Source of the DNA: Amycolatopsis sp. 2-15
GTDB lineage: Bacteria; Actinomycetota; Actinomycetes; Mycobacteriales; Pseudonocardiaceae
Assembly: GCF_030285625.1 (NCBI RefSeq)
Contig: NZ_CP127294.1
Coordinates: 7,348,001 to 7,412,000, forward strand
Reading direction: 5' to 3'
DNA: 64,000 bases
Position numbers and translations under genes: made by a program. A model generated the notes under the pieces. The model was not told the origin of the DNA. It searched no databases and saw only the letters and a list, made by a program, of their open reading frames with translations. Below are positions 42,901-46,252 of this stretch, in pieces. The first letter of the stretch is position 1. Every line of letters begins with the position of its first letter.

Positions 42901-44069
42901 CATCGAAGCCGGAGCTGGTGAAGGTCGCCAAGTTCCTGCTAGACCGACGGCCCAAGGATGCGGCACGGCCATGTCCACGGTGCTCTTGGCTTCGAGCTAG
43001 CTGTTGCGGGTCGTGACGTTGGTGTCGGCTGACGGGGCCTGAGGATGGGGACGGGTCTTTCGGCGGCAGGATGAGAAGTGCGACCCACTCGTCCGCCGAT
43101 CAGAAAGACCCGTCCATGCATCACCGTAATGCCCCGCTGTCCGTTGAGGGCCGCCGCCGGCTCGTCGCGCGCTGCCAGACCCGCCCGATCGCCCATGTTG
43201 CCGCCGAGATGGGCATCTCCCGCCAGTGCGCGAGCAAGTGGGTCAACCGCTGGCGCCGCCACGGCGAGACCGGTTTGCTCGACCGCCCGAGCGCCCCGCA
43301 CCATCAGCCCACTGCGACACCCGCCGAGGTCATCACCCGGATCGAGCAGCTGCGCAGTCAGCGGAAGTACTCAGCCCGCCGCATCGCCACCGAACTGGCC
43401 GCCGAGGGTGTGACGATCTCGGTGCGGACCGTCGGCCGGTATCTGCTGCAGCTCGGGCTGAACCGGCGCCGGTTCCTCGACCCCACCGGAGCCACCAACC
43501 GGGAACCACGCCGGATCCTCGCCCGCTGGCCCGGGCACATGGTCCACCTGGACGTGAAGAAGACCGGCGAGATCCCCGACGGTGGTGGCTGGCGCGTCCA
43601 TGGCAAAGGCAGCGACCAGGACAAACGGGTGGCCCGCGGCAAGACCCGCGGCGAGCGGGCCCGCTACACCTACCTGCACTCCGCGATCGACGGCTACTCC
43701 CGCCTGGCCTACACCGAAGCCCTGCCCGATGAGAAAGCCCGGACCGCGATCAGGTTCGTCCACCGCGCCCGCGCGTTCTTCGCCGCCCACGGCATCACCC
43801 ACATCCACCGCCTCGTCACCGACAACGGCTCCTGCTACCGCGCCAACGACTTCGCCACCGTCCTACATGGAGCCCGCTACCAGCGAATCACGCCCTACAC
43901 CCCATGCCACAACGGAAAAGTCGAGCGCTACAACCGCATCCTGGCCGAAGAATTCCTCTACGCCACATCTGGACCAGCGAAGGGCAACGCACCGCAGCCT
44001 TGACGGTATGGAACATCCACTACAACTGACGTGGTGGCATGGGCCCGGGCCCCGGTGCTGCAGTCTGGG

Positions 44070-44215
44070 GTCAAGGGATCGTGGCTGGGTTTGCTCGACT
44101 ACAACCTGCCGCAGAAGGCTGGCTCCTTGGTAGCTTGCGCCCGCCGCGATCCCGCTCCGCGGAGTGGCTCAAGAGAGGTCTGCGACGCCGGACGTCAGTC
44201 TGCCCTCCTCGCTTC
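44070..44215 (+). ncRNA. Candidate bridge RNA of the IS110 element
   Basis: The non-coding left end carries ACTACAAC (44098-44105), identical to the left target half ACTACAAC beside the insertion. A GCC/GGC hairpin follows, then TGGTAG (44128-44133), the complement of the right target half CTACCA. Downstream, AGAGAGG (44172-44178) is identical to the right end of the element (45290-45296), and ACGTCAG (44192-44198) is the complement of the left end CTGACGT (44026-44032). This is the pairing logic of target-binding and donor-binding loops known for IS621. RNA limits are estimated. Confidence 0.65.
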
Positions 44216-44247
44216 TTTCCGCTTCAGCGAAGGGAAATCTGGCCGGC

Positions 44248-45288
44248 ATGGACCGTCACGTCGTCATTGGTATCGATCCACACAAGACCAGCTGGTATGC
44301 AGCAGTGGTCGACAGCCGACACCAACTGCTCGAAGAACTCAGGGTGCCGGCAAGCCGCGCCGACTACCGTGAGCTGCATCGTCTGGCCCGGCGCTGGCCG
44401 GGCATCCGCTGGGCGATCGAGGGCAGCAGCGGCCTGGGCCGGCCATTGACCCAGCGATTGATCGACGACGACATCACCGTCTTGGACGTGCCGTCCAAAC
44501 TCACCAGCCGGGTGCGTCAACTGGCCACCGGGCACGGCCGCAAGACTGACCAGGTCGACGCCCGCTCGGTCGCGGTCGCCGCGCTCACCGGCGCCGACCG
44601 GCAGCATCGTCAGGACGACCACGCCGAAACCCTGCGGCTGCTCAGCGAACACCGGGACGAGCTCGTCCGACGCCGCACCCAGGTCATCAACCGGCTGCAC
44701 GTGCTCCTGTCGCACTTGTTTGACGGCGGAGCACCTGCATCGTTGACGGCAGACCGCGCCGCTGCGCTGCTCGGCCGGATCCGCCGCGCCCGCGGGGCAC
44801 GAGCGACCCGACGGACACTCGCAGTCGACCTGGTCGCCGAAGTCCGCCATCTCGACAAGAAGATCGCCACCGCGGAACAACGAGTATCGGACGCAGTATC
44901 CGAGACCGAACCGACGTTGCTGCAGCTTCCCGGAGTCGGTCCCGTCCTGGCCGCGCGCATCATCGGCCGTGTCGGATCACTCGACCGGTTCCCCAGCGCC
45001 AACCACTTCACCTCCTACTGCGGCACCGCGCCCATCGAGGTGTCCTCCGGCGACGTCACACGCCACCGACTCTCCCGCGCCGGCGACCGGCAGCTCAACC
45101 ACGCACTGCACCTCATCGCGCTCAGCCAGGTCCGCCGCCATGCCCCAGCAAGGCAGTACTATCAGCGCAAACGCGCAGCAGGCAAAGTACACCGCGAAGC
45201 CATGCGCTGCCTCAAACGACGACTTGCCACTGTCATCTTTCGCCACCTCACAGCCGACCAACGGGCCGCAACACCCGCGCCGGCTTGA
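44248..45288 (+). CDS. IS110-family recombinase (DEDD, bridge-RNA dependent type)
   Basis: 346 residues from the ATG at 44248. The RuvC-like N-terminal domain has VVIGIDPHKTSWYAAV (Asp10), RWAIEGSSGLG (Glu58) and GRKTDQVDARSVAVAAL (two Asp). A coiled linker (LDKKIATAEQRVSDAVSETE) follows. The Tnp domain is LLQLPGVGPVLAARIIGRVG and FTSYCGTAPIEVSSGDVTRH, which includes the conserved Ser, then HHL-like ALHLIALSQVRRHAPARQYY. It looks intact. Some 28 further codons are open upstream of 44248, but they overlap the guide-like segments. Confidence 0.9.
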   Translation: MDRHVVIGIDPHKTSWYAAVVDSRHQLLEELRVPASRADYRELHRLARRWPGIRWAIEGSSGLGRPLTQRLIDDDITVLDVPSKLTSRVRQLATGHGRKTDQVDARSVAVAALTGADRQHRQDDHAETLRLLSEHRDELVRRRTQVINRLHVLLSHLFDGGAPASLTADRAAALLGRIRRARGARATRRTLAVDLVAEVRHLDKKIATAEQRVSDAVSETEPTLLQLPGVGPVLAARIIGRVGSLDRFPSANHFTSYCGTAPIEVSSGDVTRHRLSRAGDRQLNHALHLIALSQVRRHAPARQYYQRKRAAGKVHREAMRCLKRRLATVIFRHLTADQRAATPAPA

Positions 45289-45389
45289 CAGAGAGGAGCT
45301 ACCACCGACCCCACACCGCCGCCGGAAACCGGCCCCCGGCCACCCGGCTCCACACCGGCGTCACCAACGTCAAAGCCTCATACAGCTAG

Positions 45390-45682
45390 ACCGGCGCCGC
45401 TGCGCGTGGCTGGGTGCTGTCGGCTGCGAAACGACCGGGTCGCGGTAGCCACATCCCCCATCGAACGCCGGCGTGCGCTCCGAGAACGCGCGGCCACCTT
45501 CGGACTCACTGCGCGTGAGCATCACCAGGTAGTCCGCAACGTCGACGCGCCGGAGGCGGTGTCCGTCGGTGAGATCATCGCGGAGTTCCTCGGCGCAGCA
45601 GCGGCGGTCGCATAGCCCCGCGTGCGGGGATCGGGCCGCTCAGCCGTTCCTCGGACGACGGTGGCAGCCCGACCAGGGCTTG
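45390..45682. other. Intergenic stretch with a possible gene tail
   Basis: On the plus strand a frame reads IERRRALRERAATFGLTARE and APEAVSVGEIIAEFLGAAAA to a stop at 45613-45615, likely the end of a lost gene of unknown family. No other gene is seen. Confidence 0.3.
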
Positions 45683-46252
45683 TCACCGTGACCCAGGGCT
45701 CCGCAGCGGTGCGAATGCGTTCGACCATGCGACGACCTGGTCGAGCATGCGGTGCAGCACCGGTTCGTGATGGTCGGCCGGCGCGGGTTCGGCGTCGGCG
45801 AAGTCCGTGAACAGCGACAGCGCGATCTGATCACGGACGTCGGCGATTTGCAGCTCGGCCATCACCAGGCGGAGCTGTTCGACGGCGCGCGTCGCTCCCA
45901 GCAGGCCGTAGCCTACGAAACCGGCGGCCTTGTTGTGCCACTCGTGGTACAGGAAGTCCAGCGCGTTCTTCAGCGCTCCGGTCGGCGCGTGGTTGTACTC
46001 CGGCGTCACGAAGACGAAGCCGTCGTAGGAGGCGACGGTCTCCGCCCAACGTCGGGTGTGCTCACGCGCGTAGTCGTTGCTCATCGCGGCTGGAACCGGC
46101 TCGTCGAGGTGCGGCAGGTCGAATTCGGCCAGGTCGACGACCTCATACGTGGCATCGTCGCGCTGCGACGCAACTTTGTGCACCCAGCGGGCGACAGCCT
46201 CACCCTTCCGGCCGGGGCGGGTGCTTCCGATGATGATGGCAACGCGAGTCAT
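45683..46252 (-). CDS. NADPH-dependent FMN reductase
   Basis: 189 residues from the ATG at 46252 with GGAAGGAA upstream. Flavodoxin-like FMN site RVAIIIGSTRPGRKGEAVAR, then YDGFVFVTPEYNHAPTGALK (PEYN motif contacting the flavin) and NALDFLYHEW. Cytoplasmic flavin/quinone reductase (YieF/ChrR-like). It lies directly downstream of the MFS exporter gene on the same strand and has MarR-type palindromes at its promoter, so it probably belongs to a redox/xenobiotic response unit. Confidence 0.85.
   Translation of the reverse strand: MTRVAIIIGSTRPGRKGEAVARWVHKVASQRDDATYEVVDLAEFDLPHLDEPVPAAMSNDYAREHTRRWAETVASYDGFVFVTPEYNHAPTGALKNALDFLYHEWHNKAAGFVGYGLLGATRAVEQLRLVMAELQIADVRDQIALSLFTDFADAEPAPADHHEPVLHRMLDQVVAWSNAFAPLRSPGSR

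Follow-up and report, generated by a model that had tools for sequence, protein, structure and literature searches.

An IS110-group element with a predicted bridge RNA in an IS481 transposase gene of Amycolatopsis, and the guides and targets of its relatives

The locus, its boundaries and its guide words

The window, i.e., the whole 64-kb stretch of the Amycolatopsis sp. 2-15 genome that was analysed, contains an IS481 transposase gene interrupted by an IS110-group insertion sequence (Table 1). The flanks of the element, TCCACTACAA on the left and ACCACCGACCCC on the right, give the IS481 reading IHYN/YHRPH (the slash marks the insertion point here and below), and the boundaries proposed in the sequence-only reading, with CT at both junctions, proved right to the base. 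The IS481 frame is lost ahead of the IS110 insertion point (43960-44003), so that the IS481 gene was or became broken independently. In the host genome (10.05 Mb, one contig), at least one full-length match to the element and at least one 39-base match were found among the best 40 of 264 candidates.

Table 1. Features of the element, of its left end and of the interrupted gene (window positions), and loci of nested IS110 elements.
Feature	Position	Strand	Remark
IS481 transposase gene, left part	43071..44025	+	also frameshifted
Whole IS110-group element	44026..45300	+	core CT counted at both ends; one copy is the target's
Core dinucleotide CT	44026-44027 and 45299-45300
Non-coding left end	44028..44247	+	220 nt; encodes the predicted bridge RNA
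Target-binding stem-loop (predicted)	44077..44153	+	helix 44077-44094 / 44137-44153; inner helix 44108-44112 / 44118-44123
Left target guide ACTACAA	44098..44104	+	equals left target half
Right target guide TGGTAG	44128..44133	+	reverse complement of CT/ACCA
Donor-binding stem-loop (predicted)	44157..44212	+	helix 44157-44168 / 44202-44212; inner helix 44182-44183 / 44187-44188
Left donor guide AGAGAGG	44172..44178	+	same as stretch of element's right end
Right donor guide ACGTCAG	44192..44198	+	reverse complement of element's left end CT/GACGT
IS110 recombinase	44248..45288	+	346 aa, no internal stop; PF01548, PF02371
TTGACA, putative -35 box of circular-form junction promoter	45285..45290	+	overlaps stop codon
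Non-coding right end	45289..45298	+	short, 10 nt
IS481 transposase gene, right part	45301..45389	+	up to stop
IS110s nested in a rival's donor-guide loop	L104:2551-2752; L154, L155, L156, L157	- (L104)

The recombinase frame is uninterrupted and both of its Pfam domains exceed their cut-offs (PF01548, E = 1.3e-22; PF02371, E = 7.5e-25), the solved chains nearest to it by sequence being those of IS621 and ISCro4. Residues D10, E58, D101, D104 and S267, read by eye, probably form the catalytic set and fit the one described for IS621 in the available part of PMC11208158; S267 is aligned with IS621 in a significant stretch, the stretch holding D101 and D104 scores only 1.6 bits, and D10 and E58 fall outside the printed alignment. 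When the right and left ends are joined, TTGACA is followed by a 17-nt spacer and TGGCAT, a putative promoter with a weak -10 box and no statistic behind it. Because TTGAC, a motif of the right end, was built into the search pattern applied to the relatives, it is present in the right ends so obtained by construction; its generality rests on the multi-copy genomes.

Four short words had been proposed in the left end, in the order target-left, target-right, donor-left, donor-right, and all four were recovered at their positions. The left target match with the first core base included is ACTACAAC (44098-44105); its proposed identity with the left target half holds for seven letters and the first core base and fails at the second core base, which is C instead of T, the core position of the guide (44105-44106) being CC for an element core of CT. 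The right end of the element, GACAGAGAGGAG, contains the left donor guide, whose match stops short of the core. The chance level was estimated with dinucleotide-preserving shuffles of 44028-44247. Among 20,000 shuffles, the left target, right target, left donor and right donor words appeared 2, 328, 265 and 102 times, respectively, and all four in order never, which agrees with the earlier judgement that such a chance match is unlikely. In a freer test, where any shared word of at least the same length was accepted, the corresponding counts were 2, 2597, 485 and 177 of 5000, and all four were again never found together (0/5000). Taken singly, the right target guide carries no evidential weight, 2597 of 5000 shuffles matching as well; the evidence comes from the four matches as a set.

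Near copies, empty sites and a covarying fold

Near copies were searched by DNA in 390 genomes of the family, with two candidates scored per genome, so that the copy numbers are lower bounds. Besides the window copy, at least two full-length copies (92 and 88% identity) and at least one nearly full-length copy (77%) were obtained, together with two 3' remnants (883-1275 and 882-1275 of 1276; 79 and 77% identity) and many further matches, more distant or partial. The copies at 88 and 77% are carried by loci in Amycolatopsis sp. CA-128772 and Sciscionella marina, respectively. The sequence-only reading had proposed that the flanks of other copies be compared, and on the left the target is indeed the same: in all four near copies, window included, the IS481 reading W-N-(I/V)-H-Y-N lies on the left side, ending at the same base. 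IS481 lies on both sides in three of the four, the right side of the Sciscionella copy (L004) being without IS481. The remnants have no left part, and their right flanks align to the IS481 flank of the window in diverged form. ACTACAA and TGGTAG, the two target guides, are identical in all four near copies.

The 14-mer CACTACAACTACCA has exactly two perfect occurrences in the 10-Mb host genome, both in IS481 siblings whose proteins are 90 and 86% identical to the split IS481. The sibling from G000:C1:7301006 holds an uninterrupted site. When up to one mismatch was allowed, the target pattern was found at four genome places versus seven for a backwards-read control, i.e., no excess in number, and the two one-mismatch places are outside the eight IS481-type matches found. 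At the level of sequence, the telling point on empty sites is that both exact places are IS481. The other sibling is interrupted upstream, at a different point, by a second element (L132:129-1388) whose protein looks IS110-like by eye.

The left end of the window folded alone is no better than shuffles (z = +0.38), and the Rfam scan of 43800-45700 gave no family at gathering score; four Rfam matches in this interval were far under the gathering scores and were taken as chance. The RNAalifold consensus of 33 aligned left ends consists of two stem-loops with 32 pairs, 21 of which show two-sided changes, and standard pairs occupy 93.4% of cells in these left ends versus 79.1 ± 0.8 in shuffles. 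Covariation was scored at 0.432, compared with 0.175 ± 0.011 in shuffles (reached by none of 500), which related sequences can exceed without structure, and with at most 0.108 when partners were slid, a control that preserves relatedness yet leaves an advantage to a structure derived from the same alignment. The four guide columns are unpaired, the target guides opposed in the first internal loop and the donor guides in the second. A placement outside the internal loops had been named as one of the outcomes that would speak against a bridge RNA; in the covariation-supported model built in this analysis, all four matches fall inside them.

Searching with the covariance model gave 98 matches across 100 sources and another 19 across 17, in all 117 matches, the model-building sequences included. 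Its sole match in the window (44053-44215, 116.5 bits) is one of these training sequences (L001). Anchoring with regular expressions, which failed to place many of the left ends and in one version placed 32 of 34, gave way to the columns of the covariance model.

Guides and targets across the relatives

To compare guides with targets, each guide was taken from fixed columns of the model, and the right donor guide served to set the left boundary, in which the target guides had no part. Of the 117 matches, 14 were dropped because their left end was not placeable with 6/7 donor-guide matches, and the remaining 103 represent 97 distinct insertions, among which 47 different left target guides occur. 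Having the same guide and the same 12-base left flank, the window and L003 count as a single insertion among the 97.

Across the 97 insertions, the left target guide matches its own flank at 5.49 of 7 positions versus 2.41 ± 0.13 for exchanged flanks (reached in 0 of 10,000), and with one element per guide (n = 47) at 5.51 versus 2.10 ± 0.20 (0 of 10,000), a shuffling that leaves the shared descent of guide and target in place. Within the groups of elements sharing a core, the observed value was reached in 0 (CC, n = 20), 3 (GC, n = 13), 16 (CT, n = 6) and 38 (TC, n = 6) of 10,000 shuffles. The right target guide, taken at the best of four registers, matches at 4.31 of 5 versus 2.74 ± 0.11 (n = 67) and, with one element per guide (n = 35), at 4.17 versus 2.44 ± 0.15, neither value being reached in 10,000 shuffles. 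For the donor guides, the match of the right one to its own left end is 6.21 versus 4.98 (0/3000, n = 24) and that of the left one 6.17 versus 5.70 (8/3000, n = 18); the covariation of the latter is weak because the left donor guide varies little. Among the 97 insertions, 22 match their left target guide at four or fewer of 7 positions, L036, L037 and L065 among them at only 1-2. Both L036 and L037 carry, immediately ahead of the left end, a copy of the element's right end in inverted orientation. The element cores, placed by the right donor guide and counted once per guide (n = 47), are CC in 20 cases, GC in 13, TC in 6 and CT in 6, and the core of the guide differs from that of the element in 10/97 insertions.

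Relatives with other guides thus occupy correspondingly other targets. The three copies of G470, for example, have the flanks TTCACA/CC and CC/GAAG with the guides CTTCACACC and CTTCGG. Among multi-copy relatives, a common target recurs in G470 and in G586, for example, and a common right side in 4/5 copies of G760 and 3/3 of G773. One G470 copy (L100, G470:C1:2001798-2005814) is bordered on the left by a sibling's left end that breaks off precisely at the sibling's own left target guide, as though this guide sequence had provided half a target.

Some of these targets lie in other mobile elements. On a Frondihabitans plasmid (L127:1-3000), the element splits the reading LRQYF/PKGTDL, with an IS30 transposase annotated upstream, and its left target guide, AATATTTCC, matches at 7/7; the joined pieces match rve and rve_3 with E-values of 2.1e-6 and 2e-4, under the Pfam cut-offs. 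A Pfam scan of ten flank fragments, chosen by eye from the 47 one-per-guide elements, gave matches for five, namely L127 (rve, rve_3), L067 and L042 (PF01548), L003 (rve_3) and L082 (SSB), and none for the other five (L057, L116, L055, L130 and L024), the L057 flank being an IS110 transposase by eye. L067 and L042 are located shortly ahead of another IS110 transposase gene, the source of their PF01548 match. ARAGORN detected no tRNA gene in 15 loci, a search that a split gene would escape. The right flanks of L099 and L064 resemble, by eye, the 3' half of a tRNA.

One set of relatives is inserted within the left end of another, rival IS110. L104 (G740) sits in the donor-guide loop of such a left end, its left flank being 96.0% identical to positions 2208-2609 of L070 and its right flank 94.6% to positions 2608-2773, so that the two matches overlap by two core bases; the recombinases of the nested and the rival element are 48% identical. 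A search with the L104 left end in 160 genomes of the genus of G740 gave ten places, and at five of them the left flank is a rival donor-guide loop: L104, L145/L057 (G664), L147/L125 (G488), L148 (G772) and L152 (G769), the loop match of the last covering 74 nt only. The rival is found on both sides in three of the five, i.e., in G740, in G488 (92.5% left, 94.5% right) and in G772 (92.9 and 93.9%), in which only a short remnant of the inserted element is left; in G664 and G769, no rival right half was found within the stretch taken. L146 (G773, 82% identity) is not in a rival loop, and L153/L067, L149, L150 and L151 have other flanks, so that four of the five places at 80% identity or more are in the loop of a rival. 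L104 has the guide CAGACCC, L057 and L125 have CAAACCC, and these variants follow the GGGGTCTG or GGGGTTTG of the rival; the guide of L148 matches at 5/7 positions, counted by eye. The core of L057 is TT, not CT. Of the 153 loci examined, 6 contain the 14-mer CAGACCCCTCTTGA and 14 the 14-mer CAAACCCCTCTTGA.

We lean slightly toward the view that evolution has directed the bridge-RNA guides of this clade to conserved regions of other mobile elements: the IS481 HYNYH codons in the window, the IS30 LRQYFPKG codons in L127 and, in one set, the donor-guide loops of rival IS110 elements. In this last case, if the view is true, an RNA-guided transposon would disarm the guide RNA of another, with its own guide tracking the variant of the rival (CAGACCC or CAAACCC). 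Should the nesting, a by-product of this analysis, hold, IS110 elements would prey on each other via their guides, and the ecology and co-evolution of RNA-guided transposons would be directly testable.

Interpretation and comparison with known systems

Near copies, fold and guide-flank matches all argue, by computation and for a predicted RNA, in favor of the bridge-RNA interpretation given in the sequence-only reading. We consider it very probable that the window element is an IS110-group insertion sequence whose left end encodes a bridge RNA guiding insertion into IS481 genes. This RNA would have two stem-loops, the first internal loop pairing with both strands of the target and the second with both element ends, joined in the circular form, and the DEDD recombinase would exchange strands beside the CT core. 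Transcription, the RNA-protein complex, the circle and the strand exchange are here modelled on IS621. Since the target guides fit the HYNYH codons near the end of IS481 transposase genes, the element would be expected to land in IS481 copies.

A specificity carried by the protein alone, with guide-like words that are due to chance or left over from a shared ancestral target, can point to the near copies, which represent one ancestor and one target and so have little independent weight, and to the right target guide, which by itself is a chance-level match. Such an explanation is very improbable in view of the 47 distinct-guide elements, for which the own-flank match was never reached in 10,000 exchanges, of the position of the guides in the loops of a covarying fold, and of the common target repeated by the multi-copy relatives (e.g., G470 and G586; G760 and G773 on the right side). 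Another possibility is that bridge RNA and guides are real while the window copy has ceased to move. One full-length copy in the host genome (among the best 40 of 264 candidates), the core mismatch of the left target guide and the empty matching site that remains elsewhere in this genome are in agreement with a loss of activity, which we nevertheless hold to be unlikely: the recombinase frame runs through without a break and has the expected motifs, and full-length copies in other genomes (92 and 88% nucleotide identity) keep the same guides. These copies (L003 and L005) share the core mismatch as well, which thus did not stop the spread.

Assignment to the IS1111 group hardly deserves credence. 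Both groups encode DEDD recombinases of the same superfamily, but the accessible part of PMC11208160 indicates that IS1111 members appear to carry the bridge RNA in the right end, whereas the RNA predicted here occupies a left end of 220 nt and the right end, where an IS1111-type guide RNA would have to lie, measures 10 nt.

Taken as a bridge-RNA element of the IS110 group, the window copy offers a natural case whose boundaries, target and donor are readable along with all four guides. The clade as a whole, with 47 left target guides paired to natural flanks and with the cores CC, GC and TC, could serve as a test of the core tolerance of bridge recombinases. The novelty that the sequence-only reading had implied for the bridge RNA itself falls away, since the available part of PMC11208160 already gives predicted bridge RNAs for 85.7% of IS110s, most of them at the left end. 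The mechanism is therefore known, and the window element is a clean natural case of it inside another IS. Actinobacterial precedents are found as well: IS110 itself was sequenced from Streptomyces coelicolor (a reference title in PMC11187229), and a paper on the IS110-family ISKrh6 depicts a seekRNA-determining region for an IS element from Kocuria rhizophila, likewise an actinobacterium (PMC12500396, available in part). In the titles and abstract beginnings that were covered, most subscription journals lying outside them, none dealt with IS110 elements guided into IS481 or into bridge-RNA genes.

IS621, as far as the available parts of PMC11208160 and PMC11208158 describe it, is like the window element in its DEDD recombinase with PF01548 and PF02371, its left-end bridge RNA, its CT core and the distribution of left target, right target, left donor and right donor guides across two internal loops (PMC11208160). 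It differs in its targets, which are REP elements (PMC11208160, PMC11208158) and not an IS481 transposase gene, and in the second core base, a T that is almost invariant in the IS621 group (PMC11208158) whereas 39 of the 47 elements examined here have CC, GC or TC and 6 have CT. The two recombinases are distant from each other, with 45.7 bits in the best stretch (residues 192-333). Judging by their names, ISAar29 is an Arthrobacter element and ISEc21 an enterobacterial one. ISAar29 is one of six diverse members inspected for boundary-loop pairing in the available part of PMC11208160. The ISEc21 seekRNA system is of the IS110 type like the window element, with the guide RNA coming from the upstream non-coding region, but its target, in the accessible part of PMC11187229, is a different one. 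Family members that target another mobile element are also in print with IS4321 and IS5075 (a reference title in PMC11187229); these are of the IS1111 type and target a terminal repeat, in contrast to the transposase coding motif and the guide-RNA genes entered by the elements described here.
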